NCBI GenBank assembly: GCA_963855995.1
Contig: OY979718.1
Coordinates: 21,692,282 to 21,756,281 of the forward strand
Length of the DNA stretch: 64,000 nt
Reading direction: 5' to 3'
Source: Muricea muricata
Taxonomy: Eukaryota > Cnidaria > Anthozoa > Malacalcyonacea > Plexauridae
The notes under the pieces were generated by a model. The model was not told where the DNA came from, did no database searches, and worked only from the letters and a program-made list of their open reading frames with translations. Below are positions 1-63,056 of the stretch, piece after piece; within the stretch, counting starts at the first letter, position 1, and every line of letters begins with the position of its first letter. Both the position numbers and the translations under genes were made by a program.

Positions 1-1885
1 AAACATCAGTACCTGCAGAAATCACAACTGATCTCCGTCCTATTTCATTGACACCTACCTTGTCCATAATTTGTGAATCATTTGTATCCGACTGGTTGAT
101 TAGTTGAATCATGGATAGTTTAAGAAATGGATAGGACACTAGGTGACGTCAGTGTTGAAACCTACCTTGCGATTCGTGATGTCACGAGTATTGCGAATAT
201 GCTAACGGTTTTCGCTATTTTCTTTATTTTGCCATATTTTTCGCATTCAAACTGTAATTTTGGAGCCTAAACTGGTCTGGTTAATTTACAAACATGCCTA
301 TGCCACGACAAAGTATTTGAGGTAAATGTTTTTCGTCTTTGTTTTGGAATGTTTAATTTTTGTAGCTACGAAAATGGCATCCCAAGACTATCGATGATTA
401 AACTAAAATTTGGAATGCATTTTTAACTGTTTAATTCTTGAAATATTTTCTAAAATTTACTGACAGTACTTAGATACTTCATCGTAGATTGGTTTAGAAA
501 TATTTATTTGTTTTTAGACTAAAATGTTCAGCTGTATTATTGCTAAACGTGCAGGTTTTGAGGAGTTATGGTGATGTCATAATTTGCAGCTAGGTTGAAA
601 CGCCGTCAGCACGCTGAAAACATCACAAATGACGACGAGTTTTCTATCCATTTCTGTAACAATCCATGGTTGAATCAAAAATAAAATCGACAAGAGGCAG
701 TTTGGTTCTTTGAATTCTTCAACGACCCATAATCTAATTAGTTTGGTGCATCACCCTAGCTTCAAAAGGAGACCCACGCGTCAAAATGTGCCGTAAGAGT
801 ATTTTTGCTTGATTTTTCTAAGGCATTTTACTTAGTAGACCATAATATTTTACTACGCAGGTTAATAGATTTAAACGTTCCCCCAACTATTCTTAATTGG
901 ATTAAAAGTTTTTTAACTGAACGCAGACAACGCGTGAGGCTGGGAGTTGTTCCTCGAGTTGGAGAACGTTAAACGGAGGAGTGCCACAAGGAACTGTTTT
1001 AGGACCAGTTGTTTTCCTAGTGATGATAAAGGATCTTCTTGCCGAATAGCCTGATAGATGGAAGCACGTTGACGACAGCACTGCTGCTGAAAGTGTCACG
1101 CGGGATTGTAACAGTAAACTCTAGGATCTTGTAGATTATATTTATAACTGGACTATTAAAAATAATATGAAGTTAAATGTGACTAAATGCAAAGAAATGG
1201 TTGTCAACTTCAGTAAGGGAAAACGAAATTTCCCGTTGCTAGTAATCGATAATATTGAGGTTGAACGTGTTAATTCTGCCCGAATTCTAGTCGTTATGAT
1301 CCAAAATAATATAAATTGGTGTGAACACGTTACTAAAATTCTTAAGAAAGCAGGGAAGAGATTGTGTATGCTTAGGTTACTGAAACGAGCTAACGCCGAC
1401 ACAAAAACATTATCAACCGTATATACTACAGTTATAAGACCAGTTTTGGAGTATGCTTGTCAAGTTTGGCACTTTAATATCTCAGGATATCTAAGTGATG
1501 ACATTGAAAGAGTTCAAAGAAGGGCGTTAAGGATCATATTACCGGAACTTAGTTACACGGAGGCAAGAGAACTTTTTAACATTCCACTATTGAAGGACCG
1601 GAGCGAGTTTATGCAAACGATTCTTTTTAAAGCATGAGAACCCTCAAACACTTAATGAATTTTTACTTAATAAATCTGCCGCTACATATGATTTGAGGAT
1701 AAAATGTAAATATAATAATCATTTTTGTAAAACAGAACGTTTTAAGAAGTCTTTTTTGTCACAAATTATTTCGAAATTGAATTGTAACTAATAGTATTTT
1801 TCATGTATTGATATTTTATCTTAATTACTTATGTAATTTAACCTTTTGTTACAAAATCAGTGATTTTTCTAATAATAATAACAAC
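1..1885 (+). pseudogene. Decayed CR1/L2-like LINE reverse transcriptase, split by a MITE
   Basis: Remains of a non-LTR retrotransposon reverse transcriptase. Bases 1-109 encode the palm start (DLRPISLTP). The reading frame resumes after the 111-668 insertion with FGSLNSSTTHNLISLVHH, then LDFSKAF-like text near 805-860, GVPQGT near 980, and HVDD in place of the catalytic YADD at 1065-1076. An open stretch at 1167-1637 carries the RT thumb and C-terminal region (LEYACQVWH, RVQRRALRI). Homology continues in another frame to a stop near 1790, and a short AAT-rich tail ends near 1885. Stops and frameshifts occur near 108, 770, 950, 1050 and 1635, so it is dead. The 5' part lies outside the window. 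CR1/L2-like is a family-level inference. Confidence 0.85.
111..668. mobile_element. MITE inserted in the LINE, 8-bp target duplication
   Basis: A 558-bp segment with terminal inverted repeats (ATGGATAGTTTAAGAAATGG at left against CATGGATTGTTACAGAAATG read inward at right). It is flanked on both sides by GTTGAATC (103-110 and 669-676). Removing the insert and one flank copy restores continuous LINE reading-frame homology, which shows a clean insertion. No transposase is present. The 8-bp duplication suggests hAT, but the termini do not prove the superfamily. Confidence 0.85.
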
Positions 1886-2653
1886 AAAATCGCATAGTCC
1901 CAGTGAATGTGGTGCTCAGATCTTAATCCCATTCCCAGTTTATTGTTTTTTGGCCAATGAATCCCTGTCCCAGTACCTGAAATTCAATTTTCGCAATCAA
2001 AAATAGGCATCTCCCAGTTCTCATTTTACCCCTTAGGATTTCCTGATATCAGAACTATTTAGCTATGCAAAACTTTCTCGGAACATGTCGACACCAAGTT
2101 GTAGGTGTCCTATATTTGCTTCGCAATTTTTTTCCTATTTCTTCGTCATTTTACCTCGAGTTTCCTCCAGATATCTTCCTTGTATCGTCTTTGCCATTTT
2201 TATTAAATCAATCAGCATTTTGAAGACTTTTGGAAGACTTTTGGTGTCTTGTATTCGGTCCAAGCAGAGAGATTTTCAGCAAAGCCTTTCCATCGCAGAT
2301 AAGCAGCAAATGACGTCAGGTGATCATTGTCCTCCAAAAAATACCCGCATGTACGTAAAATATTCAATAGTCCATGCACGAAACTAAAAAGGGATTTTAT
2401 TACGCAAACGAAGTGTTTTTGGCATCATTTCTAACTCAGGTATTTCATCTACTTTTTTCCTTCTTGTTTACTTAGTTAATTCGCCTGCGTTTTGTATTTT
2501 TTTTTATTTGCATGGTTATGAGCAAGAAAAGACCCGTTCGTGATTTCGTTGGCTAACATATTTCCCTCCGTGGCCGAGAGGTAAAGGTGACTGTGTTCCT
2601 GATTGCCCAAATCGTTTGACTTTGGTTTTGGGTGGTTCGTGTTTTTTAGCTAT

Positions 2654-3145
2654 TAGAGACCTTTATGTAGTTTGGCGTTTACGGCAAACGGCAAACCTCA
2701 AGCGTGTTCATTATTATAAAAACGAAATCATGAACCGTGAAGTGCTCAAGCTAAGCGATGTATTCAATAAATCGAAAATACTGATCTACGATGTACTTGT
2801 ATGACCACCGAAAGGTATCACTGACGGAAAACAGTTTAGGGCCTCAATCGCTTGACGTTCGAGTTGACGTTTCACGTTTGTAGTGAGCCGCTATGAGCAT
2901 GTCTAGCAGTTCAATTGTAGAATTCAAACATGAAACGCCACAATTCAAACGTGAAGCCATGTAAGCAGGAAAATGATTGACGTCAGTCATCAAGTGTCTG
3001 TGATCGAACGATCTATGTGCAGTGTATTTATTCTTATTAATAGTTCGTATGGGTAAAACATTTCACGGTCACTAGTTTTATTTTTATCTCAAAGGACGTG
3101 TCTCAGGTTTGCCGTTTGCCGTAAACGCCAAACTAAAGGTCTCTA
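2654..3145. mobile_element. MITE with ~45-bp inverted termini in the left foldback arm
   Basis: Both ends carry a near-identical inverted terminus: TAGAGACCTTTA followed by GTTTGGCGTTTACGGCAAAC and GGCAAACCT. The left flank is CTAT (2650-2653) and the same CTAT follows the right end (3146-3149). The corresponding position in the right foldback arm lacks the element. No ORF of note, so non-autonomous. Superfamily not assigned. Confidence 0.8.
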
Positions 3146-3849
3146 CTATTTAAGCAAATTTTCTAAACTTGACTGTTGGGGACAGGTCTGTAGGGTTGGT
3201 GCAATGAAGACTTCTCGCCGTTATTTCTCTTCGTTCATGAAGACAAGTTGTTTTCGTCAAGAAATAACGACGAGATGATTTAAAGTCGCCACTAAACCAC
3301 AGCACTGTAAAACTAGAACTACAATGTAATGGCTTAACTATATATGGCTGACTTCTTCCCAAAGCTTATACTTTTATTGTATGGTAAAAACATGGATGCG
3401 CAAAGATGCGCGAACATTTTCAAAGCCTTTAAAGCAATTTGTTCAGGAAATAACCCAAGACGACAACGCTTACTAAATCAAAGCCGTGTAGTCATGTCTT
3501 AAGTTGCTTAGCTAGCTATGTTTTACAGAAAAGTCTTTGTAATAAGCGAATTTGACGTTTGCAAATTAATAACTTTTGTCTTTTTTGACTTTACGTGGAC
3601 TTTTCTTCTTTCTTGATCGAGCTTTATGCGCCATTGCGTTCAGTGTCCTTGATATAGGAGCCATTTATTTATGGCCTTGGGTTTAATTCCCAAACACTGA
3701 ATGGCAGTCTTCAGCTCTCTCAAGTAATGAGGTAACATTGCAACAAGCTGGCAATAAGTATGACACATACATAAAGACATTTTACTACCAACATGCAGGA
3801 AAGTTTGCATCGAGACTCATAGCTTCTACATAGCCAAGCACATTTTATA

Positions 3850-5800: not shown

Positions 5801-7289
5801 AAAAATAACGTGTTGTCGAACGAATTTAAAATCAAGATGGCGTCGTCTTCTTCTCCTAAAATCAATGCAGCTAAAATCGTTCTAGTGAAGTTGGGCATCA
5901 ACAATATTCGTATTCTAGTATTCCTTAATTATTCTGCGTATTTAAATGGTAAATATTTTAGTTATTAAATGCTACCTTTTTTAAAAATCCGGCCTGGCAT
6001 ACCAGGTCGCAATCTCAATTTTCTGTAATCAAATAAAAATCATTTTAATGTAATAATATAACTCAGTTTCGATTTTTCTCGCTTTCTCTAGCTGGGCGTA
6101 AGAGAACCGATCGAAATGGAAAACTGGCCCCTCAATTAAACAGAATTTTCAATTTCGAGGTAAGATAATTTGTATCTCAAGTCTGCGTCTTTTAGCTGTA
6201 CAACTAGTTCGGACTAATGATTTGGCATTAATTTTGTCAGACAGATACTTTCAGGTGGTTGAAAGTTTCTAATTTTTCATACCTAAAATATTGCCTACAT
6301 TTTACATAATCCAGAGAGACTGGGACACAACCACGAGACAAATGTGATACGAGAATCCACGTCCAAAAAGGAGATTCAAAAGCATTCGAGATGGTAAGAA
6401 AAACAAATATTACTAAATATTTCATTATCTGTATTCTCCCCCCCCCCCCCAAAAAAAAATCCTCTGTCAGTGACGTAACTTTACCATTAACATGAAAAAC
6501 ATGTCTCTAAAGTAATTTCTTTTTATGGGAATTTACTATAACTTACTTTCATTCTTTCTGCTGTTACTTTTTCTTAAAAACTTTTTGTGTCCACTGATAC
6601 ACTGCACTCTACACAGGAAATGGGAATTTCAGATTTCTAGTTAAATTTAATAGGAATTCTTAGCTAGGGTCAAATGAGAATTCATTTTTCTAGACCAATG
6701 TTAACAACTGACATCATAAGTGTTTACATGACTTTTGTACTGCGTTTCATTTGAACTACATGCAAATCTAAATTTCTTGATCCTTGCACTTCAGGCCCTC
6801 GTTTAATTTCGACATTAAACCCCCTTCCCTCTTCTCTAATCCAATCTTCCGTTTACCACTTTATTTCTTACACTAGCCCTCTCAAGGTAATACCTCCTGA
6901 TTTCACTTCAATTTTCATCTTTTCACACACTTCTTACTCAAATGACCCCTCCTAGAGTAGCATCCCTTTTCGTCACCCAAATTCAGTCTTTATCCTGTTT
7001 GCGCTCTTCTTTCTCCCACTATCCATCCAGTACTTGTAAGTTGTTCATTTGTCGTAGTACAGGAGAATTATTTATTCAGTTTGACGATTACATTTATATG
7101 ATAACTACAGTGAAACACGACTCATTTTAATTCCGCCTCGTTGTTACCTAGCCCTAGCAGCACTAATAAGTTTCTGATATTTTACCTCATTTTACAATTC
7201 CAACCACCCATTCAATATTTCGAAAACGGAATACCCAGAGCAACGACTGTCGGCAGAGCGTTGATTAACTTCTCACATGGATGTCACAA
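5801..7289. other. Non-coding interval
   Basis: No gene recognised. It contains a C10A9 homopolymer run near 6440-6459 and otherwise unremarkable AT-rich DNA. Small ORFs here lack any recognisable domain. Confidence 0.6.
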
Positions 7290-33894: not shown

Positions 33895-34598
33895 TGTCAA
33901 AAATATCACATGGAGATGAACACGCAAACATTTTAATGCAAATGATTTTTTATGCAATCGCCGAGGGTTCTCTTAACACAACAAGCTATGGAACATCCGT
34001 TTGTAGTTTCTTTATTGTTTGCTCGTAGTCACCAAGCTCTCGACTATAATATAATAACAACCAACAACCGTTGAAGACCTTCCTGGAACTCATCAGACAT
34101 CAACGATTTTTCGTGACGTTGCTGAAACTTGCATATGGAGTCACACTCATGGCCTCTGAACAGACGGAATTTTCGCACTCTGGAGCAACTTCTTCTCGAA
34201 ATATTTCATCAAATTTCATAGCATGTAAAATATCCGGTAAAACATTCTCAACAGAATCTCAAGTTAAAGACGTTTAGTAAAGCGCAGATAGCATGATGAA
34301 TTTTAAAATCAATTCGGTTGATCTGACGAGCTGTTTGCATTCATTTAATAAATACCATATATCTATTTCGTCAGCAGTTTCGCCTTCGTCTAATTACTGA
34401 AATAGCATGTGTATCGCCTATACCACCTTCTCCAAATGTAACACCTCGTCACCAAATTTTTGCTGTATAGTGTTGAGAACATTAGTAATCTGCTTTGATA
34501 TTGGTCGCTCAGTTGCACCCAGTCGTTTAAACAGATGTTCAAAATCTCCAAACGCTCGCGGCAGTAAATAAAGAATTTGTTTCAAATCGCACTTGTAC
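33895..34598 (-). pseudogene. Truncated duplicate of the sacsin-like exon 2
   Basis: Strongly similar, on the same strand, to about 40357-41270 of the sacsin-like gene. Shared stretches include ATCACATGGAGATGAACACG (near-identical), TTATTGTTTGCTCGTAGTC, TGCACTCTGGAGCAACTTCT-like text, and TAATCTGCTTTG.TATTGGTC. Relative to the intact gene it has lost about 165 bp near 33988 and about 45 bp near 34235. Stop codons interrupt the frame. It begins and ends abruptly, with a LINE close to its high-coordinate end. It lies 3' of the intact gene in the same orientation, so a tandem duplication followed by decay is the simplest reading. No HEPN exon copy was found beside it. Confidence 0.88.
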
Positions 34599-34819: not shown

Positions 34820-36993
34820 TGTCCCATTTCATATAATGGATATTTTTGATGAAGTGGATGATAAAGTTTATGTGTTGGACACTTTATATTCTGACATTGT
34901 TAACGAACATGCACCTATTAAGCAATTCCACTTAAGAGGAAATCAAGTTCCATTTATGAGCGAAAAGTGGAGGAAAGCCATTCGCCATAGAAACATGCTT
35001 TGGAAAAAATTTATACGAAATCGCACTGATGAGCTTTATGCGATTTACAAAAAGCAAAGAAATATATGTACTTCTTTGCGACGTAAAGCAATAAAATCAT
35101 ATTTTCACTCCAAGGTAGAAACATCGAAAAATCCTGGCGATTTTTGGAATGTTTGTCGGCCTTTCCTCCCTTCAAAAAAGTCTAAACAAGCAAACGACAT
35201 TGTGTTGCAAGAAGATGGCCAGTTAGTTAAAGACAAAAGAACTTTAGCACAATTATTTAACAGCTATTTCGTTCATGTTGCAGATATAGCGCCAGAAGTT
35301 AATGAAAGGTCTTTTGGAACGGATTTTAGTCTTCACCCAAGCATTAAGACGATATTGCATAATAAAAACCAAGATGAATCATCTGAATTTAACTTTTGTT
35401 GTATAGATAGGGATCAAGTAGAGAAACTCATGTTAAACATCAAAAGCAAAAAATCATGCGGACACGATCAAATATCATCACGCTTGAGTATTAGCTGAGC
35501 CAATTGCGAAAATAATAAATAGTTCAATTACACTAGGCCAATATCCTACTTCTTGGAAAATGGGCCAAGTGACGCCTTTATTCAAGAAAGATAACGAGTT
35601 TAATAAAAAGAACTATAGACCAGTATCCATTTTACCCTCCTTTAACAATGTTTTCGAGAAAATCCTCGCTAACCAATTTGAAGATTTTTATGAGAATATA
35701 TTGTCGGATCATATTTCTGCGTATAGGAAAAATTATAGTTGTGAAACATCTTTGTTGAAGCTAACTGAAAACTGGCGTCAATCTTTAGATAACAAAGAAA
35801 TTGTTGCAGTTATATCGTTGGATTTGTCTAAATCTTTCGACTGCATACCTCACAATTTGCTCTTGGCAAAGCTTAAGGCATATGGTGTTAGTGAACATTC
35901 TGTATAAGTTTATTTAAAAGCTATTTGTCTAATCGCATGCAACGCGTGAAAATTGGTGATACATATTCAAGTTGGGAATGCGTAACTAGGGGAGTTCCAC
36001 AAGGCAGTGTCTTGGGGCCAAGATTGTTCAATATTCACATTAATGACTTATTTTATAATATAAATCTTGGAACACTTCATGCTTATGCAGATGATGAGCA
36101 GTTATACAATTCTGATCGTGATCCTGCAGTTTTGGAGAGAAAACTTCAATATGAAATGGACTTAGTGAATACATGGTACAGCAATAATGGCATGATTGTA
36201 AATCCTGAAAAACATCAAGCAATGATTCTTGGCAATTGCAATCACAAATTTGCATTTCCTGTAAATAAATCGATCGAATTATTGGGAGTAACACTAGATA
36301 ATGAACTGAAGTTTAATTGCCACATTACAACAATTTGCGACAAAGTTAACAATCAGTTTAGTGTAATTAAGAGGTTTGGAAGCCTCTTTAGAAAAAAATT
36401 ATTATTAAAACTTTATAAAGTATTTGTTTTACCACATTTCCGCTATTGCTCTCTGATATGGCATTTTTGTGGAAAAAGAAATTCTGACAAATTAGAATCT
36501 CTAAATAGGCGTATATTAAGATATATTTTTCAGGATAAGGGATCTAATTATCGTGACTTATTATCTCAAGCAAATACTAGTACATTATATAATGCTAGAA
36601 TGCATAGTATGTTATCTATGGTGTATAAGAGCCTTTTGCATCCTAAGTATCCTAATTATATAAAAAGATTATTTAAAACTAGAACGTCTAAATACATACT
36701 TAGAGGCCAAAATATATTAGCGTTAACGAAACCAAAAACGACCAAGTATGGATTGGAATCCATTAAATATTTAGCGGCTAAGAGTTGGAACTCGCTCACG
36801 GACGATCTTAGGACGGCAATGGATATTAATAAATTTAAAACCGCAATTAGAACGTTAGATTTTTCTATTCCTTTTTAAAATATAAATTGTATATTTAGAT
36901 TTAGATTTATGCTCGAAGATATTAGCCCATTAGTTTAAGCTACTCTGTAAATTCGAGTTTAAATAAAGTGTATGTATGTATGTATGTATGTAC
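34820..36993 (+). pseudogene. 5'-truncated CR1/L2-like LINE with TATG tail
   Basis: It starts within the endonuclease-RT linker (MDIFDEVDDKVYV, with NEHAPIKQ and PFMSEKWRKAI). It continues through the RT core with NYRPVSILP near 35610, SLDLSKSFDCIPHNLL near 35815, GVPQGSVLGP near 35991, the catalytic YADD box (36084-36095), and a C-terminal region ending at a stop at 36878. Frameshifts near 35490 and 35905 break the frame into three open pieces. The 3' UTR ends in a TATG/ATGT microsatellite (36969-36993), as in CR1/L2-type LINEs. The endonuclease domain is missing. The catalytic core is better kept than in the LINE at 1-1885, so this insertion is younger. Confidence 0.88.
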
Positions 36994-37483: not shown

Positions 37484-37925
37484 TTATTCCTGAAACAGTC
37501 CTTTCACATATTCCAGCACTTTAGAAGCGGCATCTACTGCACTCTCGGCTTCATTGAGGTCGAACGCTTCGGCTGGGACGACATTGAACGGTTGGCAATT
37601 GGGATACCGAGAACTGAGGTAATAGTCTGAAACTGTCCTCATCCATTTCATCACTGTCACGTCCGGCAGCCCAGTATCTTCCCTGAGGATGTTTGCAAGT
37701 TCCATCACCCTATGTGAGCCAAGCGATGAAGCGGAGATGCCGCAGTAATAAAAGAACATGGCTTTTATACATTTCTCTACCACCTCGTGGCTGTTGAAAC
37801 AGGCTTGGGCGTTAAAAGGTGGTCCAGATCGAAGTAACCATGCTAAGTCGCTTTCGGCTTGATTCAGCCAACGAAATGCTTCCTCGTCGTTTTTTTTATA
37901 AAATTCGTCGTCTTCATCCCAGTTG
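37484..37925 (-). CDS. Exon 3 of the sacsin-like gene (HEPN domain)
   Basis: Last coding exon. It follows acceptor TTATTGCAG and continues the Ser codon split across the intron (AG|C). Sequence NWDEDDEF leads to the HEPN helices: AFRWLNQAESDLAWLL, NSHEVVEKCIKAMFFY, then SSRYPNCQPF, the positions where sacsin HEPN binds nucleotides. An in-frame extension upstream (to 37972) reads intron and is not used. Full-length HEPN, so the C terminus looks intact. Confidence 0.9.
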
Positions 37926-40900
37926 CTGCAATAAATATAGATGTAAATTTTTTCATTTTTGGCACAGGTCAATTTTCTAACTTATGTTCTGAAAGTAATA
38001 CCATAAAGTACAAAACATGATTCGAAAAAAACATCTCGAAAACGAAAGATATAGATTCGTAAAGAAGATGCAGCTTTAAATGGTCGTATTTGGATCCTTT
38101 TACACAATGATAATCAGACCAACTAGTTTTCCAATCACTCAATTTTGGTTCCAAAGTAGACCTACGAAACCATTGCCTCTCATAAAAAAAATGTTTATTT
38201 TAAATTTCCAAAAGTTTCGAGTTTTTTGACAATTTTCTGCGTACATGTCAAAGTGCAAAAATTTACATCACTGAAGCATACAGAAAGGTCGTGCTTGTCT
38301 CTCCCATTCTCAAAAATACCTCAATCCGAGACACACTCCGCAATCACACAGTTTAATACACTAGCTCGACACTCATAGTTACAAACTTTCAATACCCTAT
38401 CTTACTTAAGATTGAAGACGGTTGATGCCACAAATAGATGGCTAATCACTCGGGCGAAAAATTAGGATTTCTAATACTGGCACAACTCTGATTTGCACAC
38501 GCTTAACAACCATGAATAACAGTAACAGTTTTCGTAAAAACATCCATGGCTAATATCACAGGAACAAAATAAAACAAATTTGAAATGTGAGGTTTTCACA
38601 TACCTGTGGACGCCAGTCACAGCAATTAATATCCGTAATTACAGCTACAAATCGTAAAACAATCGCAAACTAAACAGTTAGGAACAATGGCTAATACTGC
38701 ATAATGTGTTAAAGTGACAAGTGTAACTGTTCTGAGATTAAACTCCCAAGGCTACTTTCTGATGTGGCTGTAGAACGAACGATACTGCGGTGCATATCGA
38801 TACTGCGGTGCCATGTTTATAATAATTAGCCGTTTCCGTACTGTAATCCACACAAAGAGCAATGTGCATCATGGTACATAATTTGTTCAAATGCAGGCAA
38901 TTCTATCAGTCGATGTGGTTTACGTCTCGTTTACATTCATGAAAATCTTGACGACTGGGGTAGGGGGTGTCCACGGGGGCTTTTCGCTTTATTTTATATT
39001 AGGACTTATTTTGTGTGTTGCGGTGATGACAATTTTGCACTTTGACATACACGCTAAAAATTGTCAAAAAATCGAAACTCTTTTGAAATTTAAAATAAAC
39101 CATTTTGTTTTGATGAAGGGCGAGAGTTCCTTAATCCATACACAAAGTTTGAGGACTGGTCTTTTTTTGAACAAAAATTGAGTGGTTGGAATTTAAAGAG
39201 ACGAACTCTTAGAACAGTGAAAAACCTTAAAGGTAAGCAATTATGGCACCGCGTGAATTTTTCCTTTTCGGCATCTTTTAAATCATGTTCGTATGCCGCG
39301 AGCCCATAATTTGAGCAAGAAGAGCCTGTAGTTAATCTTTTAGCAGCGCCAATTAATTCATACATATGTTTCTTATAGATGCTATGTATATCCCTTTGAA
39401 AATGCAAGTAGTCGCCCTGCTTATACAGATCAGCTGTAATTCGAGCTAGCTGATGCAGCCTCCCTGTGTATAGCCAACCTTTCATGGCGAATAGTGGTAA
39501 TGAACGACTGATTACTACCAAGTAGAAAAAATGGCATGCTTAAACTAATAATATAGTATGCTATTGTAATAGTTGCAACTGCAAGTATCTAGCAACAATC
39601 ATTCGCCTGATGATCGTTTCAGAAGCAACATGAAACACAGTGTAGCAAATTATATTCAAAATATTGTAATGTTTTATTGATTGTAGACATGTAATGAATC
39701 AAAGATGAAGAAAAATAATGAGGTGGATCAACTCGGCATGCTGCCCACGCTAAACAATGCTAATCATGCCTGTATATTTGGATTTTTTGCATGTAGCCGA
39801 GAAAAAATTGCAATTAGCCCTGTGTGGTTTAAACTTGCCCACTTTGCTTGAATTAGTCAAACCACATAACATTTGTTCATTGTGACCAAGAATCTCAGTT
39901 AGCTTCAGGCACTGCAGGTAGTGCCGCTACCTAGGATCCCAACATTTGACAGGCATGATGCTAATTAAAAGTATTTCATTTAAAATGGAAACCCTGTACC
40001 CACATTCACCTGAAGAAAATATTATAGGACTAACCTTGAATGCCTGACATCTCCGCCACCAACATGATAACCAGCACCATGATAACTGCCAGCTTGATGA
40101 CCACCACCATGGTTACCCCCTCGATAACCAATACCATATCGACCATCATAAAAATTTGCACTATCACTCCTATGGGAGTTGGACCCATGACCTTTCGTTA
40201 CACTTGCATCTTTAAACTCAGCTCCCATTCCACTGCGATTACATCTTTCGCTCTCTACGTCGCGATCCCAGCCAGAGAATGGATCACTATCAGCAAGAAT
40301 TAACACCCCAGTAGTTTGAGGTACTATACTAAACTCATTTAGCTTTCGAGAAATGTCACATGGAGACGAGCACCCGAGCATTTTAATCAGTCCCATCTTT
40401 TCGTTTATGGACTCGCCGAGGATCCTGTTAACACAACAAGCTATGGAAACCAAATCATCCTCAAACTCGTGTTGAACGTACAATGTCCACATGCCTTCAT
40501 CTTGTACTGCGTAACAACTTTCTTCCAAGTTCGCCACAGGCTCAACGTCATTACACTCTCGATTGGTGATATTAATTTTTATTTTGTCCGTGCCGACGCA
40601 TTTGACTTGAACATTCGTTTGTAGGTTTTTTATTGTTTGCTCGTAGTCCTTAGGGTCTTGACTCTCATGCAATAACAACCGTTGGAGGCCTTCTTGGAAC
40701 TCATCAGATATCAACAATTTTTCGTAACGTTGCTGAAATTTGCATGGGAAACTACGCTTGGCCTCAGAACAGACTGCATTCTTGCACTCTGGAGCAACTT
40801 CTTCCCGAAATATTTCATCAAATTTCTTTGGACGTAAATGATCCGGTAAAGCATCGATATAACTCTTAGGGACCTTTTTCAATCCAAACTCCTTAAATCT

Positions 40901-43900
40901 CAACAGAATCTTAAGTTGAAGATCTTCAGTCAAACGCGTATACCGTGATGAAACTTGGTAAATCAATTCGCTGGATCTGACAAGCTGCTTGCGTTGACTT
41001 AATAAATACAATATATTTATTTCTTCAGCAGTTTCGCCTTCTTCCAATGACTGAAATAGCATGTGTATTGCGTATATCACCTTCTTCACCACCTCCAAAT
41101 GTAACACCTCGTCACCAAATTTTTGTTGTATAGAGTTGAGAACATTAGTAATCTGCTTTGGTGTTGGTCTCTCAGCTGCACCCAATCGTTTAAACAGATG
41201 TTCAAAATCTCCAAACCGTCGCGGCACTAAATAAAGAAATGGTTTCAAATTGCAGTTGTCCGGTAGTTTGAATACCACTTGTTCACCTTTTACAAAAACT
41301 TTATCTTCCTGCAAAAATATGCATGGGACTTCTTTCAGTTGCGCGCCAATACACACACAAACTTCAGTGCATTCGTCATTTAAGGCGCGACCATAACACT
41401 GTGTAGACTTGCATAGATGCTTGTAAACGGCCTTGGTGATTTCATGCATGACATTACTATCAACTGTGTCAGGATTGTAAGATGTGGCTACGTTTTGTAG
41501 ATGGTGAAGGACATCGGTGTGTGTCGGTCCGGACCAGGCTATGTTAAGGGCTTTCAGGTTAGCACCATTCGCATGTTCTGCCGGTGGAAGTATAGAGGCA
41601 GAGGTCCAGGCTAAATCTCTGAAGCGCCACGGTACCGCATTACTGAATTTAACGAATGGTGGATAGCCGCTGCTGGAACATTGGTATTGTTTGTGCATCG
41701 ATGAAAATTTTCCTTCCACTTCAGCTTGCACGATAAACTCGATCTGAGACACTCGGGAGAGAAATTCATCGTCTTGTTGTAAGGATTCCTCGTTAAAAAG
41801 ATACTCTACCAACGCTTTGGATTGATCCCTACATTGTCGAAAATCACGAAACAAATGTCCATTCTCAGCAACTTTCGCGCAAAATTGCAAGAATATCTCA
41901 GGTGTGATGTCAACCTGTAGTCCAATATCACGAAGCAGACGCGACCAGCTTTCGTCGTTGAATAGCGACGGAGGAAATTTGTTGCTATCACCCCCATACA
42001 TTACTTCGAACACGTGGTTGCTTTGGTCGAAAAATTCAGATGCTTTATGAAGAAGGCCATCTTTATCAGGAATACAGGCCGTCTGACTCATTCTCTTCAA
42101 AAAAAAGTCCTTTTCAGGGTTGCAACCTTGAGGTAAGGAAGGGTGGACTTTGTCTCTTATGTATAGCAAATGCGTCATTTGGTTTTCTGTACTGAACATG
42201 CTGAAATGTCTGAAGATATAGCCCGTATAAAATTCCTTAATGTTTCGAATAATCTTGACTCCAAGCTCTTTGTAGAGTTTCTCAAGGGCAGGCAAAGCAT
42301 CAGCGAGGAGAAATAGACATTTAGCTCGTTCCTGAAGCTCATCGAACTGTTCTGTTGGAATTCTGGGAGGAATAACGGCACATGAAGAATACGGACCAGT
42401 CAAACTCACAAACTGTCCGTCGAATGCTTTATAAAAAGGAAGGCTTCTTACTAATTCCTTGTGTTCTTTGAGTGCTTGATAATTATCTTGCATAAATTGG
42501 AGAAAGTTACAAGTTTCCTCTTCAGAAATTTCTGAGGCGTGTGTCAGGCTTTCGGTCTTCAGCATGTGATTGAGAACAAGCAAGACGTCTAATGCGTCGT
42601 GCGGATGCGCCACATAGGCATCAGTGACGGCTGGTATCCTTCGCAGAGGTATGGCTGTTTTCTTCGGTGTAATTTTGCATCCGGTTAGGGATGAGGCATA
42701 TTCATCTCTAAAAGTGATTTCCTTGTTCAAAACGGGACACTTCATGTTACTCAAGAATGTTCGAACTTTTTGTTCAGGAATGGACACATTTCCAGCAGTT
42801 GTCATATCCAAGACAGTTTTTCCGTGCTCAATCGTCACGAGTTTTCCGCTAGTTGTTGGAATTAGAGGCCATTCCGATAGACATTTTAAGGAGGCACAAT
42901 CTCCATCATTTGCATCAAGCTTTGTGTCATTTTGTAAGAGATCCCAAAATTTTTTTAACCACTTTTGAGAAAGCGTTCCTTCCACTGGGTATTGCCATGA
43001 TTCGTTATCTTTGATATCTATTAGTACTTGATGTGTGAATACATCTGGCAGCAACGTCGGCAGATCACGCACAGTTAGCTCTATGACGATCTTCTCTTTC
43101 GATCCGATAGCTGAAAGTGGAATGTCACAGACTATTTCAGAATGGACAAAGGAATGCAAGTGTTCCGGAAAAAGATCACCGAATTTAGAGCAAAACACGG
43201 GTTGTTGTGAATTAAAGACTCTGAGGTAGCCATCTTCTGTTAGTAGCAAAGGAACGTCTTCCAATTGCCCGCCGAAACTGTCATCTTCGCAACAGTAATT
43301 TATCAGTTTTGATAACTCTGTAACACTCTTGACTGCGGTGGTTTCCAGTTTTTTGGGGAGATTTGTAATCTTGCAAGTTGAATGCATCAATTTAAATTCT
43401 CTAAGGAAAGCAATCACGCTTTTCGGGGTTACTTCATTCGAAGAGCGACCAGCCGTTTTAAAGTTACAATATATTCTGTATGGAGCATATAGTAGAACAG
43501 GAATGCCAATTTGCAACAACAATGTCAAAAAATTGTTCTCCGAGCTACATTGATGGAAGTATGCTTCGTCAGCTGAAACCCATTCAGTGCAAGTAACAGG
43601 CATAGTTTCGCGTGATTCTGATAATCTCCCAGAGTTTTCACTACCAAGGTTTTCCAGATTTTCAAAGGCACTGTCGGTATCTTTTTCTAGAGTACTACAG
43701 TTTGGTTCGTTTCCTGATTTGATAGGAACAAGCAGTGGAAATACTTTAGCATTTGTTCGTCCAAGATAACGATATAACTCAATAATGAGCGGGTTCCAAG
43801 GAGAACCATCTAAAACGTTCGGGAACAAAGCATGATAGCGAGAAAGTTGGTTGTCTGTCCCATCATTGCAAAGATGGTTACGAGCCTCCTTGATCAAAGC

Positions 43901-46900
43901 TGCATAGGCTGGCGGTAACACGCAAGTGTTGATGAAGTGATTCCACTTGCACTTTGGTCCTTCGCCATCCGTGTTAGTCCAAAGACGTCGTCTGTGGTTA
44001 TCCAAGGCAAAACGTCCATTTACATGAACTGGTAGATTAGAGTAATTCTCTGGAAGAGGTAAGAAGCAGTATACCGTGCCTTTTAATGGTTCCTTCTGCG
44101 AATGCGACCATAATCGAGCTGCAAAGCCACCACTTGGAAGAAGACCAAGTTCTCGACCGTTGGCGATCTCATTCCGTAGCTCATCAGAGATGTCAAGGCT
44201 TTCATCATCCGATCCAATGCGCTTCTGTATCAGCCATTGTTCGACATCTTTTCCGTTCTCTTTAATATTCAGGATGTAACTCACACTTTCCCATCCAACG
44301 TTTGGTACAGAAGTAGAACCAGTGCCATCAATATTTTTTTCCGACTTGTAGCGTTTCTTTGCATCTTCAGGTGTAATAATGGACTCGACCCGCAATATTT
44401 CTTTGAGCTTGTCATTGGAATTAATCTTGGAAAGCGTTATCTTCTTCACGTGATTTAGAAATAACAGCGAGTTTCCGGCTTCCTTTTGGAAGGTCTGGAA
44501 AAGGTCTTCTACGAGAGGGCATTTATTTGATATCTTGGACTCATTTCCTCCCCGTCTTAAAGGAAAACGAAACATTGTCGAACCACATAATTTAAAGTGT
44601 TCAGGAAGATATCCCTTAAGCGTATCTGAGATGCAGCTTCTAAATTTCTCATCCGCCGACTTGAGATCAAACAATTGGCCACGATCGTTATCTCCAAAAT
44701 GGCGGCAGTGAGGATCAAGAAACGCCAAAGTATGTTCATCTGATAGAAAACTTGGGCAGTCTGTAAGGTGGTACACAGAATTGAAACCGATGCCATATTT
44801 TCCTGCCATTTTAGGGTGGTCTTTTTTGCTTCCGGTACCGAGATTCCTGATCCCATCGAGGTCTTCTTTGCTGAATGGTCTGTCGTTGAACACACAAAGC
44901 GCTGGCCCCAGGACTTCGTCGGAATTTTTGTCTGTCGCGACCTTTTCTGATTTCAAAGATCGAGTGTCGTGAATTAGATGTATTTCCGAGGCCTGAGCAT
45001 CATCTGCGTTTTGCACTAGTTCTTTAAGTATTCCATCAACAGGATATCCATCAAGAATTCCTTTGAGTCGGTCTGTCAACTCTTCGTGTTGGCCAAATGA
45101 CTCACCGTAACCAATATCATTTGCACGTGTTTTTAATATGACACCCTTCAACGATTTCGCACCAAGGTGATGGGCAGTGTGCAGCGGTATTTTTTCGTGG
45201 ACTTTTAAGTTGTCATCAGATTCGTCCAACCACAAATCTAAGTTCACAACGAGGCTAGAGCTTGGACGCAAGATACCGTTGGTATCCGGTAGAAGAATGT
45301 CGTCAATGTTTTCTTTCGAAGCCATGTTTCTGTCGTATATTTCAGTGATAAAAAATGTGGCGACTTGTAATTCATCCTTTGTAAGGGGACTTCCTTGCTT
45401 CGCTCTGTTTAAGTCAGACAGAGCGTCGATAAAGTCTTTCTCGTCAAACGTATCTTTGACATGAGTAGCTTGAAATAGTTGATAATAATTTCCTTGATAA
45501 TTTGGAGGCAGAGCGTACAAAAATGGAGCTCCTTTTTCGTTTAACTTACGAGCCACTTTCTTTGTTTGCACAAATCTATCTCCAATAAATAACCAATGTT
45601 GCTTTCTTAGTTTTTTAAGGATTGTTGCGGCTGTTTTGTTTATGACTTGGTTATTGAAAAATTTGTAAATTTCCTTGCAGACTGATTGAATCTTGGATCT
45701 CTTTTCAGCGTCTTGTTTTTCGTATTGAGATAACTGGTTCCAATATTTCATAGCTTCATCTAACTGCTGAAGCACGAACTTGTCTTCAGGAAGACGCTTC
45801 GACAACCCCAAGAGATCTTCTACTTTATTATTCAGCTTTCCACAACCAGTGCTCTCAGATGTGTCTACAATTAGACAAGACGAACCAACTAGGTTTGCAT
45901 CTTTTGGTAAGAAAACGTTTCTTGGAGCACAAAGACATTGCGAGTAATTAGTTGAACCCTTCCAAGGTAAAATATATTTAACTGCAGGTTTTCTTAACAC
46001 CGGCAAGATATTCAACTCCTCGAGAAGCTTGGCGTGAGAAGTAGGTTTACCCAGTTGATTGATCCGATCGTTGAGGTACTTTATTAACTTCCGAGAAGAT
46101 TCATTATTTGCCAGAACGTTGCCATTCGAGATTACCCGAGCTCTTTCGAGAATTCCTTTCCAATCAAGATCTCGAACCATACCAAGTTTTTCCAAAGCAT
46201 ACAACCGATTTGGATGACGGAGGCCATTTCCAACTGGAAAACGGTGATCTTCTTCGGAAAACAACTTCGCTGCAGCACCCCGTGGGTGGATAAGGTCAGC
46301 AGGTTTAACAAGAATTCTGCTGTTTGCTGACACCGCAATACATGCATTTCGCCGAAAAAGATCTTCATCGCCTTTTATTCCACGGGCTTCAAGGATACGA
46401 TCTAAACCAAAGCATACGATTTCATCTCGCCGGGTGCTCGCGAAGTGTTGGATGTTTGGAAAAAAGTGTTGTTTGAGAAACTCCGTAAAGTTTAGAGTAC
46501 GTCGTTGCAGGATTTTTTGGCAATCAAATTCCTTGAGGGTTAGCAAAATGTTACTGGGAAGGTTAAATACATGTATTCCTAATGATCTTAATATTTCCAC
46601 TGACGTTTCATAGATCTGGTTGAAATCCACACTCAATAAGATACCATCGGTGATACTCATCCACAATCCATCACTGTAAAATAGCTCAGATTGTGTATCT
46701 AACAAAACAGTGCAAACTTTCTCGACAAGCCTTTTCCAGGAATGCATATCAACACGGGATATGTTTGGCCACAAAGTATGGAATTTGTAATGCGGAACAT
46801 CGTTAATCAAATCTTTCATATTTTCAAGAAGCATTATATAAGCTCTGGCCAATGCGTCCTCCATCAGTGCTTCATTCCAATCCACCTCGATTTGTTGTTT

Positions 46901-49900
46901 CTGCATGACTGTTCGTTTCCAGATCCCAACACGATTTGACATGATAGCAAAGTTACCATTTACATGCACAGGAAGTCCCGTAGGAATAGACAATGGGAAA
47001 AAACAGAACAGTTCCCCACGAAGATCTCGTGTGCTTTGATTCAATGCTTTTTGAATTAAAAATGCTGCTCCACCACATGGTAAGTAGCCGCGATCTCGTC
47101 CCTCTGGCGAGCGAGCAATTGCAAGCGAAGAATCACTTCCGCTGGCCGAAACTACAAGCCACTTTTGGTCACAACTGTTCGCAGGTTTACCATGGTTCAA
47201 CTCTGATGATTCAATTGTAGTGGTGATGGTAGCAACTTCACAGAGAAAAGGGTATTCACTCAGACGCGATTGAGTTCGGTATTGTTTCCACCACTTTGAA
47301 CACTCTCTAATGAATGGTTCAGCGCTTTTCATCCCACTTTCTCGAAGCTTTGTCACGTCTGGTTTGTTTACAGATAATATCAACCGCATTTCATCTGGAT
47401 GACTGCACTCATCCAATTCGTATACTTCTACTTTTTTAACATGCTGCGAAAAGATCAGGAGAGTCGAAGAACATTCACAAAGGTTAGAAATAATTGCTCG
47501 GATCTTTTCATTACCATAGGCAGTCTTGCTGATGCCACTCGTTTGTGCTTGGGCAACTGTGCGGAATGGAAATCGAAACAATGTTGCGTCATAGTCGAAG
47601 CTACAGTGATTTTGTACATGTAGCCATTGCAACCAGCTGACTTTAGCCTTCTCAATATTGCAACCAAAGACTCCATTGTACAGTTGAAGCTGGTCACAGT
47701 AAAGTGTTAAGGAATTTGGATTCTTAGCAAGGTTAATACGGACACCAGAACGGGACTTATCCCTAATGTGATGTTGCAAATGGTGAGTATTGGGATCGAG
47801 GACAACCAAGTGTTCTCGGCTAATAAAGCTCGGCACATCTGTCACGTGATAGACAGCGTTGAAACCAAGGCCAAATCGACCAATTTTCGAAATATCTTCC
47901 ACTTTTGTCTCTCCAGCCAGCTTGTAAATATTCTCAAAATCTTCGTCGGAAAATACAGCGTTATTGTAGGCCCAAAGAGCAGGACCTTGACATTCTGCCA
48001 TGCCAGGAGAAAATAAGCTTCCAGCTGGACCGTTTCTCCAATCCACCAAAAACTTAACCGTCGTTGCACCTGCATCATCCGCATTTTGGATCAACTCTTT
48101 GAATATTCCAATCCCATCTTTGTACTCTCGAAGTATATTTCTAATTCGAGTTGTCAGTGATTCATACTGTCCTACTTGTTCAAACAGCTCTGTTGGAAGA
48201 ATACAAATGTACAAGAGCATAAATTGTACAATAACTTTTATGCAGGTGAGCCTAGATTGGTTTGGAAAAGTGTTCCTATTTACCAATTAGAGTAAGTTCT
48301 CTAGCGAGAGTTTATTAAAGAAACAGTTGATGCAGGCGAAGCCCGGCAAATATACTATCTCTTGAAACATCGAGAGCGAGTAGCAGCGATCAAACAAGAA
48401 ATTCCTAACAGAAATGAGTTTTGAACCATTTTTTTAAAATGCTCCTGGAAAATATTTTTGGTGCTGCACGCTATCTATTGAACACCGCTGAAACAGTTTT
48501 TCATATATCAGACAAATATTATTTTCCTTACTTTCTTAGGTATTCCGCGTAAGTTTGAGTCGGTGTCGCAAGACAATAATTATACTTATAACTAGAAAAC
48601 TCTGAGTAGGCAACTTTTCTTTTGGGGGAATATAAAATACAATTCAAGTATTCAAATATGATTTTAAAGCAAACCATCAAACGCATTCTGCTTGAGTTTG
48701 TCGATATCTTGTCTTGTTTTCAACCAGCTCCATGTTTTTTATAGAGCAGTGAGCTATGTATAATTATACTTGAAACGATAACTTTTATCTTTGAAACCAA
48801 TTCCAAAATGAAGGGTGCCATTGATAACCAGGAATCCCAAATTACCCATTTTCAAACAGTGTTTTCAATACTATCGTCAAAACCTTATTAATAATTCATG
48901 AACTAACTATCCAATAACCAGTGCTAAATAAGTCACGTGCATGCCTCTTTATACCTGCTAGAGAACACTTCATTAAGCAATAACACAAAAGATAATTAGT
49001 AGAATCATACTAGCATACTAATGCGAATGCTGTAATTTGATTGGTTACTCTACTCGCTATCTATTCCTCGATAGATAGCGAGTAGCAAAACAACAATTTT
49101 CCTGCCGTCTTTTTTGTAATTTAAAGACGATATGTAGTATTATTTTTAACAAAATGGCTTATGAATGAATTATTTATCCTAGATTCTACTAAAACAATTA
49201 CTCGCTCTCAATTTCTATCCGTTGATAGTTAATTCGGGCTTCGCCCTCATCAACTATCACCGCATAGAAATTTCGAGCTCGAAATCTAATTGTTAATTGT
49301 CATGCAAATTATATAAAGATTTTTATATAAAGATTTGACTTTGTTATGCAAATGTCTTCTGAAGCCATTTAAAACACTCACATGACGTGGGTTTATTAGG
49401 TACAAAGCCACTCGCGCGAATCGTGTTTGAAATAGTACATAAAGCCCTTTAAACCCTTTTTAAGTCAAATTTCTTGTAGACTTAAAAGAGTGCTGTTCTA
49501 GATTGAATACAGCGTTTGAAAATGGGTGGCATTTGGGCACTAGGTTATAAATGGCGGCCTTCAATTTGTTTCAAAGATGGAAGGCAAATTATCGTTCGGA
49601 GTATACTTGTATCGAGTTCATAGCTACAGAGCATAGTGCATAGATCAATCTTTTACAGGGGCGATTAGATTTTGCCCGATTATGTTAGCAGCTTTTGGTC
49701 AATATTCGGCGTTAAAATTCAAAATGTATGCGACCGTACCGGCGTCTGTTGCGTTTTGGCAACTTTCTATATGTCAACTTTCTTAGCAACTTTCGCCAAA
49801 CCGACCATTTCAAAATCTGTCAACAGTTGGCTCTTTTCCAAAAAATAACTGGAAAAAAATTGTCATGCAGTCGAATTCTTATAGCTACCGCAAAAAACCA

Positions 49901-50218
49901 TTGTAAAAACAGATGACAGACTTATTATTCTACCAGTATTAAAAATAAAGAATATGATCAACAATTTTATTAAAATAAATAATTAAATAACAGATGATAA
50001 GGTATTGCCTTTCTAACATCACTAAAAAGTTAACCCATACCACATTAGATATAGTATAAATAGACGAGTGATATAACAGTAACCTTGCTTCGCTCATTCG
50101 CATTGTTGGCTCAATGAATAAGACCAAAGCTCAAACATTTTGTTAGTACATCAGTAAATTTCTTGGCCGGTGCTACTTTATTAATATGCGACTTACCATC
50201 CTCGTATTTTTCAGCCAT
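37484..50218 (-). CDS. Sacsin-like protein, two HSP90-like ATPase modules plus HEPN, 3 exons
   Basis: Spliced model on the minus strand: 50218-50197 (22 nt), 48189-40035 (8,155 nt), 37925-37484 (442 nt), totalling 8,619 nt and 2,872 residues. Donors are GTAAGT and GTTAGT, acceptors CCAACAG and TTGCAG, and phases join cleanly. GHL/HSP90-type ATPase module 1 has ELIQNADDAGAT (~residue 39) and GRFGLGFNAVYH (~110). Module 2 has ELVQNADDAQAS (~1064) and GKYGIGFNSVYH (~1136). A Gly/His/Tyr-rich linker (~2690-2725) precedes a C-terminal HEPN domain. Human sacsin (~4,579 aa) has a ubiquitin-like domain, three repeats, a J domain and HEPN. Here there are two repeats, no ubiquitin-like N terminus, and no J domain that I can see. 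Family knowledge suggests an ATP-dependent chaperone-like role. The specific function is unknown. 5' UTR exons are undetermined. Confidence 0.92.
37926..40034 (-). other. Intron 2 of the sacsin-like gene
   Basis: 2,109 bp between donor GTTAGT (40034-40029) and acceptor TTATTGCAG. Mostly AT-rich. It contains an unexplained open frame at 39090-39521, annotated separately. Confidence 0.85.
39090..39521 (-). other. Unrecognised open frame inside intron 2
   Basis: A 143-codon minus-strand frame with coding-like composition (KGWLYTGRLHQLARITADLY, HSIYKKHMYELIGAAKRLTT, AAYEHDLKDAEKEKF). An acceptor-like TAATCAG precedes it. A donor-like AAGGTTTTT follows the LPLR text. I recognise no family. It could be an alternative exon, an exon of a nested gene, or a captured fragment. 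Confidence 0.35.
40035..48189 (-). CDS. Exon 2 of the sacsin-like gene (giant exon, both ATPase modules)
   Basis: An 8,155-nt exon without internal stops, encoding residues 8 to about 2726. The acceptor is a pyrimidine-rich TTTGTATTCTTCCAACAG, after which GAG|CTG begins ELFEQVGQYESLT. The open frame extends 32 codons upstream (to 48286), but that part is intron, with hydrophobic non-conserved sequence. The donor is AAG|GTTAGT at 40034. A giant exon is characteristic of sacsin genes. The minus-strand frame is clean throughout, so ORFs on other frames here are shadows. Confidence 0.92.
48190..50196 (-). other. Intron 1 of the sacsin-like gene
   Basis: 2,007 bp between donor GTAAGT (50196-50191) and the exon 2 acceptor. 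Contains a MITE at 49030-49302. No other coding exon recognised. Confidence 0.8.
49030..49302. mobile_element. MITE of the AATTGTT/CGCCTTCGGCG family, copy 4
   Basis: Contains TTTGATTGGTTACTC, the hairpin CTCGCTATCTATTCCTCGAT with its return arm, and a second hairpin CGGGCTTCGCCC near 49226, ending CGAAATCTAATTGTTAATT. Located in sacsin-like intron 1. Borders approximate. Confidence 0.6.
50197..50218 (-). CDS. 22-nt coding exon 1 of the sacsin-like gene
   Basis: ATGGCTGAAAAATACGAGGA plus TG, then donor GTAAGT. It encodes MAEKYED plus the first base of the GAG codon completed by exon 2. The phase fits exactly, the donor is consensus, and the start has a purine at -3 and G at +4. No better exon was seen in this interval. 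It might be preceded by non-coding exons. Confidence 0.75.
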
Positions 50219-60774: not shown

Positions 60775-62495
60775 ACTCACACAATGGAGGCAGAAGATTG
60801 CACAAGGCAGCACAAACACGAACAATATCATCAGCTAGGGGAATCAAATAATTGACAATTCATTTTTTAAAATATGAAAAACTTTCATCCTACCAATAGC
60901 TTGTTCCACATAAATCCTCACATTTGCAATATTTGATGTTTTCCTCACATCTGATGGTAGCATCTGCATTGACTTGGCTTTGCTTGGAGGAATGCATAAT
61001 GTTGCCATCTTCATCAGTACTAGATCCTCCATGGTCTTAAATCCTCTGTATGCCATAATTTCATCATATGGTTCGACAAGATCCAAAAACCCAGAATCTC
61101 TCACAATGTGCACATCGGTTGCTCTACCACCATAAGCTGGGGAGAGATGAAACAGCACCATTTTGAGTTATAGCAACCAGCACTTTATAGGTGTAGTGAT
61201 GCTTGTACTCACTCCACATTGTTGCAGCCAAATCCAGTCCACTGGGTGTATGAGTAAAACACTCAAAACAATCAATTATGCACCTTACTTTTGGGTACAA
61301 TCTTTTGAAACAGTTGCTGCTTAATTTGTGTGCTGGTGGACCAAATGATAAGAACAGCCAGCTCCTTTGACATTAATTTGATCCATGTGGCCAGTATGCT
61401 ACTATAGTACCAGAGGAAACTTGAAACCCCAGGGTGGAATCCGTGTCAACCTCACGCCGAAGTCACGTCAGGGTTTTTAAATAACACGCCAGGACGAACA
61501 CGCCCCTGTGTAAATGACGTTCGTATATATGTACGCATATATCAATATGTGTGCCAAAATACGCCAAATAAACGCCAAATGGTATTACAATTTGCGCCGG
61601 CGCTTCTCACGCCAGTACGCCAAGGATTTTGAGTTATACAATCTCACGCCAGTGCGCCGAATATTTTCAAACTCCACGCCGAAGATCTTCGGCGTGACAT
61701 ACACGGATTCCACCCTGGTTGAAACCGGAATGCCAAATCATCATTCACGAGGGACAGCCTGATTTTCATCAACGTACATAAAAACTCCTGTTCTAATTGA
61801 AGTTTTCTTGGTGGACCACATCTGCTTTCAACCCCTACACTGGATGCATAATCTTCAAAGGGTGATGGAGATCTTGAGTCACTTGACTCTCTTTGTGTTT
61901 GTTGTGAACCTCTCCAGTATTCAAAATTCCGGGCTTTGGGACAAAGATGATTGAAGAGAGATTGGAATGCTTCTGTTGAAGGAATGCCAGTGTACAATTT
62001 CACCTCAAACTCTCTTGTCAATTGCCCGAACTGGTAAGGAATAGATGCCAAGTGTTCCTCTGGTTCAGATGAATCTGATCCTGGTTAATCTAGGTCTTCC
62101 ATCTCTTCATCTTCCAATTTAGTCCCTTCAGGCTCACAGTGCGCTCCCTTTGTGCTTGTTTTTCCTACGGTCTTTCGCTTCTTTGGTGACTTTTGATGCT
62201 GGTAGTCAGAGAGAGTTAAAAATATGGACGGGTAGTCGGTTTCAGGTTTACCAGGGGCTCGTTTTCCCATTGGGAAATGATTAGAGCAGACAAATGTTTC
62301 CGACGCACCTGGCTCAGGATTAAAGTCATCCTTTCTGCTTTTTAAAACCTGCTTCCGGCAAAGTTCTGCGCGATTTTCATCCTTAGGCCATTTGTGAAAG
62401 CAAAGAGTTTGGACGTGTGATCTCTTCACTTGTAGATCTGTATAGCGTTGGTCGTTATGACAGTACCCAATCGCACAGCGAGCGTGGCCTGGCAT
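60775..62495 (-). pseudogene. Inactive THAP-domain DDE transposase
   Basis: Start MPGHARCAIGYC at 62495 opens a THAP zinc finger (CAIGYC, HKWPKD, VCSNHF) with a basic/acidic tail. A TAA at 62085-62087 interrupts it, and the same frame resumes with a helical region (LTREFEVKLYTGIPS). Then come LQLEQEFLCTLMKIRL, WIKLMSKELAVLIIW, RCIIDCFECF (first catalytic Asp), RATDVHIVRDSGFLDL, MAYRGF and VEQAIGRMK (catalytic Glu), ending LADDIVRVCAALCNLLPPL. The second catalytic Asp (DRGF in the family) is Tyr here (TAC near 61058). A MITE splits the frame at 61429-61718, and frameshifts occur near 61312 and 61145. Clearly dead. Confidence 0.88.
61429..61718. mobile_element. hAT-like MITE inside the transposase, perfect 8-bp duplication
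   Basis: 290 bp with perfect termini CCAGGGTGGAATCCGTGT. Flanked by TTGAAACC at 61421-61428 and 61719-61726. The interior contains about ten ACGCC words, many in the form CACGCCAGT or CACGCCGAAG, plus CTTCGGCGTG hairpins. Such subterminal repeats are typical transposase-binding arrays in hAT elements. Confidence 0.9.
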
Positions 62496-63056
62496 AACCA
62501 GCGCACTTGAAGAACACTTGTAATTCAACGAATAATAAAATTTATAACTATTTTTCACAGCTTATAAAAGCTTTCACCTGCCGAATCTGTTACGTGATAC
62601 CGCATAGACCACGTTTTACGGCTATAAAATCACATTAAGGAAGCTTACAAGATATCAAATTACAAATTGTCACCCCATGAGTTCTCCTGCATGATAAATC
62701 TTCACGCGCCACTAAAATTTTAACCATTTTTGCGTTTGGTCTCGAAGCAATCCACGCTAGCTCACTTTTACGCCGAGGGATAAATAGCTCGAAAACGCTT
62801 CTAAAAATAACCATGTTTCAAAAGTTGCTGGCCGTTGATTGAAATGAAATTTCGTCCATAGGTCAGAAAAAACCCAGTATTTCGTTAGAATTGTTAAAAT
62901 TGATTGATTATTCTCAAACTTTTTTAAGAAATTGAAGAATATATGCAAATGAATTTTTCTCACTCCTATATGGAAATTATATGGAAATGGCGTTAGCCGC
63001 GCACTCGGTCCCAATGTTTTTGCACCCCCTGGCTTATGGCGTCGGAAAGTCGGAAA

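Follow-up and report, generated by a model that had tools for sequence, protein, structure and literature searches.

A sacsin-type gene that lacks the J domain is predicted on the minus strand of a 64,000-nucleotide stretch of DNA from the anthozoan Muricea muricata (C3:21692282-21756281 in a genome of 453 Mb and 74 contigs; this whole stretch is called the window below). It is very probable that this gene, hereafter W, is an intact-frame sacsin paralogue of about 2,872 aa with two repeats, no J domain and the architecture SACS-SACS-linker-HEPN. Since six two-repeat genes in the genome lack the first repeat and the J domain, and the comparators do carry a J domain, W is considered to belong to a derived sacsin subclass, and it is filed as a sacsin paralogue of this J-less subclass and not as a canonical sacsin. 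For the explanation as a whole, i.e. a J-less two-repeat sacsin paralogue that is uncoupled from Hsp70 and serves as a stress scaffold or an immune sensor, we estimate a probability of about 0.6; the function that it contains is proposed tentatively.

The preliminary description of this region, made from the sequence alone, held that the long minus-strand open reading frame at 40022-48286 is not the whole protein and that splicing yields a three-exon gene. This was borne out, as the minus-strand join 50218-50197 + 48189-40035 + 37925-37484 gives 8619 nt that are in frame with a terminal stop only, with two GT-AG introns, and the third exon lies in a separate open frame (37484-37972) that bears the HEPN domain. 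Shifting exon 2 inward by one or two bases produces 141 or 223 stops, respectively. For comparison, the two-repeat paralogues A, B, C and D (contig C2) and E (contig C3) and the three-repeat gene F (C3) were used. The features of W are as follows:

50197..50218, minus strand: proposed first coding exon, 22 nt (MAEKYED and the first base of codon 8), donor GTAAGT; based on the join and paralogue C
48190..50196, minus strand: intron 1 (GT-AG); paralogues A, B, C, D and E all retain the acceptor of exon 2
40035..48189, minus strand: exon 2, 8155 nt, with both SACS repeats and the C-terminal linker; donor TCAAG/GT kept in A-E
47396..48163, minus strand: SACS (HSP90-like GHKL ATPase) domain 1, which groups with middle repeats of longer sacsins
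44405..45088, minus strand: SACS domain 2, which groups with last repeats of longer sacsins
40035..40165, minus strand: Gly/His/Tyr-rich linker (approximate start), in the place of the pre-J region and J domain of the other sacsins read
37926..40034, minus strand: intron 2 (GT-AG), with open frames inside, partly in a stretch absent from paralogue C
37484..37925, minus strand: exon 3, including the stop codon
37499..37873, minus strand: HEPN domain (PF05168, E 1.1e-13)

Both ends of exon 2 are conserved in 5/5 two-repeat paralogues, and the join of exon 2 to the HEPN exon is in frame in A and B, as well as in C with a W-like donor and a CAG acceptor (letters read by eye). Genome-wide there are at least 17 matches to PF05168, each located downstream of, and on the same strand as, one of 17 SACS genes, and because of this one-to-one pairing the HEPN exon can be assigned to W. 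Genes A-F all have such a match downstream of their SACS repeats, that of D being in two pieces. A further coding exon at about 39600-39260, inside intron 2, was considered and rejected, its open frames lying partly in the stretch that paralogue C does not have.

The 22-nt first exon that had been proposed stood in part. The W region has three start-to-GTRAG candidates of matching phase ahead of exon 2, and among them a strong start context is seen only for the proposed exon, which is in frame. Its counterpart in paralogue C is identical at 21 of the 22 bases and has the same GTAAGT. Furthermore, genes A, B and D need an upstream exon, because the open stretch that leads into their SACS domain, after the last upstream stop, contains no in-frame ATG. 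Several observations nevertheless weigh against the gene model. The DNA around exon 1 is about 90% identical between W and C anyway (1092/1219 columns), and the conservation in C therefore gives modest support, whereas no counterpart was found within about 9 kb upstream of A, B, D and E. Both W and C also possess an unspliced in-frame ATG, 10 codons ahead of the start of exon 2. Paralogue E gave no in-frame join of exon 2 to HEPN, and the structure of W is a prediction from genomic DNA. Exon 1, resting on one close paralogue, is the weakest point of the model and is kept provisionally.

Analysis of the predicted product with Pfam returned SACS in two stretches (E 3.6e-145) and HEPN once (1.1e-13), in agreement with the proposal of a sacsin-like ATPase-ATPase-HEPN protein whose last exon adds the HEPN domain. 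The product also matches the sacsin entries 5v44-5v47 of the PDB (E 1.2e-38 to 3.2e-41). The two SACS domains of W, called W1 and W2, are 32% identical, and the ATPase-type residues E23, N27, D30, G60, G95, G98 and G100, which presumably have a role in ATP binding, are invariant in 9/9 aligned SACS domains. Sacsin repeats are thought to bind ATP and clamp clients, and the two GHKL ATPase modules of W may do the same, possibly with hydrolysis of the ATP.

The most important difference from the other sacsins concerns the J domain. No DnaJ or ubiquitin match was present in the W product by Pfam at E≤1. An HPD-type J domain ahead of HEPN was found in 3/3 comparators read there, i.e. gene F, a gene on contig C7 and an eight-repeat gene on contig C14, in each case in the same open frame as HEPN. 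The Pfam DnaJ model gives these three 0.00087, 0.014 and 0.014, below its cut-off, and when used genome-wide at E≤1 it picks out gene F and three C14 genes. A profile of the J domain, built from the three comparators, recovered the left-out member at 5.9e-21 to 1.7e-31. With the two-repeat genes, the best frames had E values of 0.36 to 0.98, as compared to 0.21 for a background frame of gene F, and no J domain above background was present in coding-strand open frames of at least 25 aa in the stretches covering the six two-repeat genes. Searches with hidden Markov models, including positive left-out controls, thus supported the claim that W has no J domain.

It could still be argued that W is an ordinary sacsin with overlooked J and ubiquitin-like (Ubl) exons, acting as an Hsp70-coupled chaperone like vertebrate sacsin, since short exons can hide and all three comparators do carry J in the open frame of HEPN. 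We regard this as quite improbable, in view of the J profile result and of the recurrence of the same order of linker, donor, intron and HEPN in W, A, B, C and E. Moreover, a Pfam search in three frames of the 13.8 kb upstream of W found no Ubl, Death or J domain (E≤0.1), the matches there being to transposon-type domains only. The N-terminal Ubl domain of vertebrate sacsin was found neither in this region nor in exon 2 of W. The preliminary description had presented the lack of a Ubl domain as a difference from vertebrate sacsin; the lack itself stands but is ordinary, because the Ubl domain is a vertebrate addition according to the available part of the source (PMC3710099).

The position of the J-less genes in the sacsin family can be derived from the genome-wide SACS matches, of which there are at least 66, with none in 14 control prokaryotes. 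Grouping by place and strand, which was done manually, gave 17 genes with 54 repeats: six genes with two repeats, eight with three, two with five and one with eight. The genes are mostly clustered. The two five-repeat genes are on contig C14, as is the eight-repeat gene (G000:C14:2046256-2075838; eight repeats by our own grouping), which is of the sacsin type and whose open frame spans 9,446 aa and includes J and HEPN. Within the C7 and C14 clusters, the C7 gene at 4837000-4854999 and the end of the eight-repeat C14 gene were read, together with short segments flanking individual SACS domains.

In a tree of SACS domains, obtained with a quick method and SH-aLRT support only, W1 is grouped with the middle repeats (set support 99) and W2 with the last repeats (100). 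Those last repeats that belong to the six two-repeat genes come together as one set (98). The animal row C14five_b was counted as 'bact' from its name ending, which alone explains the second change in the group table. No first-type SACS repeat was found near W, which has two repeats and not three. The linker that precedes the donor of exon 2 is short, being Gly/His/Tyr-rich in W and rich in poly-Gly/Tyr in E. On these grounds W looks like a canonical sacsin without repeat 1 and without the pre-J and J region, which a short linker replaces, and the absence of the J domain seems to be a derived loss common to the six two-repeat genes. Against a single derived subclass it can be said that the first repeats of the two-repeat genes have no supported group of their own, F2 being placed among them, and that the evidence for a J domain in the 11 longer genes covers only 5 of them, in which it was read or matched.

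Without a J domain, W would not recruit or stimulate Hsp70 by that route, and W can be envisaged as an Hsp70-uncoupled sacsin that functions as a stress scaffold or as an intracellular immune sensor. Sacsin HEPN domains are associated with nucleotide or RNA binding and with dimerisation. An alignment of eight HEPN domains of this genome (W, A, B, C, E, F, one from C7 and that of the eight-repeat C14 gene) shows RYP in 8/8, whereas the histidine of the RNase motif (Rx4-6H) is at an allowed spacing in 0/8, with one just beyond it in E. The W domain has RYPNCQ at the place where the prokaryotic HEPN protein 1ufb keeps RYPDAH. By the motif definition in the part of PMC3710099 available, where catalytic HEPN RNases carry Rx4-6H and some members have a conserved histidine elsewhere, the sacsin HEPN domains of this genome would be non-catalytic. 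Due to the missing histidine, nucleotide or RNA binding and dimerisation are favoured for the HEPN domain of W, which may dimerise the giant chain and bind nucleotide or RNA with no cutting. A qualification is that His71 of the W domain is invariant in 7/7. In sequence, this domain matches the prokaryotic HEPN proteins 1ufb (1.2e-8) and 1wol (1.1e-5), whose structures are solved, better than human sacsin HEPN (3o10, 0.92). A point against the preferred reading is that the W domain lacks 3 residues that the other 7 aligned domains have. A natural J-less sacsin separates the ATPase-HEPN core from Hsp70 recruitment, which would have a bearing on the role of this core in the ataxia ARSACS.

The dN/dS of exon 2 is 0.24 for W versus A, 0.26 versus B, 0.38-0.39 versus C, 0.39-0.42 for the pieces of D and 0.16 versus E (dS saturated), and that of the HEPN domain ranges from 0.17 to 0.46 between W and its paralogues. 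Selection on exon 2 and on the HEPN exon thus looks purifying. An improbable alternative is that the two-repeat subclass represents a burst of segmental copies that are becoming pseudogenes. Several findings point in that direction and weigh against the preferred reading: C and D have broken frames, the HEPN of D consists of two pieces 3.8 kb apart, relaxed constraint would also fit the dN/dS of about 0.38 between W and C, a partial decayed copy occurs downstream of W, and there are transposon pieces on both sides of it. Part of the subclass may well be decaying, but exon 2 and HEPN frames are open in W, A and B, and the exon 2 dN/dS of W versus A or B is low. The decayed copy corresponds to about residues 2320-2534 of exon 2 and lies at 33901-34591 of the window (minus strand; 56.5% identical at 33992-34591), and a similar decayed partial copy of exon 2 is present downstream of paralogue C.

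Exon 2 also appears to have recombined. In columns 600-3600 of the alignment, where C and D differ, W has the state of D at 585 sites and that of C at 81, whereas from column 6600 to the end the numbers are 37 and 330 (Fisher p 5e-144). Columns 6000-6600 contain 67 sites where C and D are alike and W alone differs, the two other patterns occurring at 6 sites each. Judged from these site patterns, exon 2 of W (40035-48189) is mosaic, combining sequence of the two paralogues C and D, both of which lie on contig C2. As W itself is on a different contig, the exchange, by recombination or gene conversion, either took place between chromosomes or is older than the dispersal of the copies. The flanks of W and C also have blocks in common across about 27 kb, mostly with 79-95% identity.

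A prokaryotic connection was found as well, but it differs from the one in the preliminary description, according to which HEPN fused to HSP90-like ATPases also occurs in prokaryotic conflict proteins. When bacterial genomes were scanned with the SACS alignment, 110 relatives were obtained, of which 80 were kept; the first 19 listed are cyanobacterial and show 37-40% identity, i.e. more than between W1 and W2. Among SACS-type relatives the fusion was not supported as stated, since HEPN was detected in 0/82 bacterial SACS frames by a profile of animal sequences used with no bacterial positive control (12 of them extend past the 3' end of the locus and several more are short pieces of broken frames), and in 0/5 bacterial SACS proteins by Pfam. 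Accordingly, bacterial import of a HEPN-ATPase fusion is not supported. Instead, the SACS repeat itself matches models of TmtA, which we take to be Tiamat. The PADLOC TmtA models match 5/5 bacterial relatives scanned (L033, 2.6e-263; L034, 3e-209; L057, 4.8e-110), with L060 and L068 at only about 1e-26 over ATPase pieces. W matches them at 3.1e-108 in two stretches, the best covering exon 2 residues 6-511 and profile positions 12-399 of 1370. The similarity continues outside the ATPase: in a comparison of eight animal last repeats with ten bacterial proteins picked for length, 912 columns were aligned with a probability of 100 (E 2.9e-41), and the first-repeat bodies aligned with the bacterial profile over 443 columns at a probability of 99.3, one reversed control giving 0.2. 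By these profile alignments the sacsin repeat is homologous, far beyond the ATPase, to the TmtA-like proteins of the cyanobacterial loci L032-L050, including L033. The bacterial frames mostly have one clear SACS domain in about 1,200-1,900 aa; some are longer, about 2,500 aa, and contain a further, weak ATPase match, so that repeat number varies in bacteria too.

These results raise the possibility, which we consider somewhat unlikely, that W is an innate immune sensor-effector with a Tiamat-like ATPase switch and a HEPN output, diversified via duplication and gene conversion. The homology with TmtA defence models beyond the ATPase, the mostly clustered 17-gene family and the strong mosaicism would fit this, as would the sacsin-like gene of Acropora, for which the accessible part of the report describes two old haplogroups and cites an immunogen response (PMC8626496). 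Conversely, the RNase histidine is absent from 8/8 HEPN domains, dN/dS is well below 1, the bacterial relatives scanned have no HEPN, and no Death match is near any sacsin gene among the matches listed (58 genome-wide at E≤0.01). A sacsin-DEATH fusion was rejected on this last observation, together with the absence of Death matches upstream of W in three frames. A row of weak Death matches at G000:C4:7.1-10.2 Mb, with open frames of 202-236 aa and two matches in five of them, is perhaps another expanded family. More speculative, and rather unlikely, is the idea that sacsin consists of Tiamat-type antiphage ATPases joined head to tail, and that the J-less SACS-SACS-HEPN branch, freed from Hsp70, is a fast-recombining intracellular immune family. 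The homology of the sacsin repeat to a bacterial antiphage protein provides a testable origin and function for the repeat. Overall, the observations of the preliminary description were confirmed and its interpretation was partly supported.

The remaining features of the window include a reverse transcriptase fragment at 35925-36878 (plus strand), just downstream of the HEPN exon, and THAP and DDE_Tnp_4 matches at 60850-62558 (minus strand) that represent a transposon remnant. A viral scan returned 4 weak loci. Elsewhere in the genome, a second COX1 match on a large contig (G000:C1:38414782-38416095), with one stop, is perhaps a nuclear copy, the other match being on the mitochondrial contig C74. 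On that contig, cox1 is on the opposite strand to cox2 and atp6 (names other than COX1 read from translations), an arrangement known from medusozoan cnidarians.

Comparison with known systems places W, as a J-less two-repeat paralogue, close to animal sacsin, which according to the part of PMC3710099 at hand has three Hsp90-like modules, DnaJ and HEPN. The same source describes sacsin-DEATH fusions in the sponge Amphimedon and already proposes an RNA-level stress role for sacsin, and sacsin fused to TRADD-N is described in conflict proteins (PMC8195603, in part). No J-less two-repeat sacsin class is described in the literature searched, as far as its text was available, and no paper was found that contains both words 'sacsin' and 'Tiamat', although other wording may occur. 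W resembles animal sacsin in its SACS repeats, C-terminal HEPN, overall order and close match to the solved domains 5v44-5v47, but it has two repeats and not three, it lacks the J domain, no Ubl domain was found, and its HEPN domain, preceded by a short linker, is encoded by an exon of its own. Gene F (C3:6.08-6.10 Mb) is 39.6% identical to W over 2,728 columns and differs by having three repeats, a J domain with HPD, and HEPN in the same open frame. The Acropora sacsin-like gene shares with W three exons and Hsp90-like and HEPN domains, and unusual diversity is reported for it, but its product is described with a J domain and a single copy is suggested (available part of PMC8626496). Bacterial TmtA-like proteins, such as that of L033 from Lyngbya, are 39% identical in the SACS domain and homologous in the post-ATPase body over the 912 columns mentioned, and differ in having mostly one clear SACS domain and no HEPN found. 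The mechanism of Tiamat itself is listed as unknown in the accessible part of PMC12926258. As far as can be judged from the predicted protein, W would thus differ from this stand-alone bacterial phage-blocking protein in being an animal gene that combines two repeats with HEPN.

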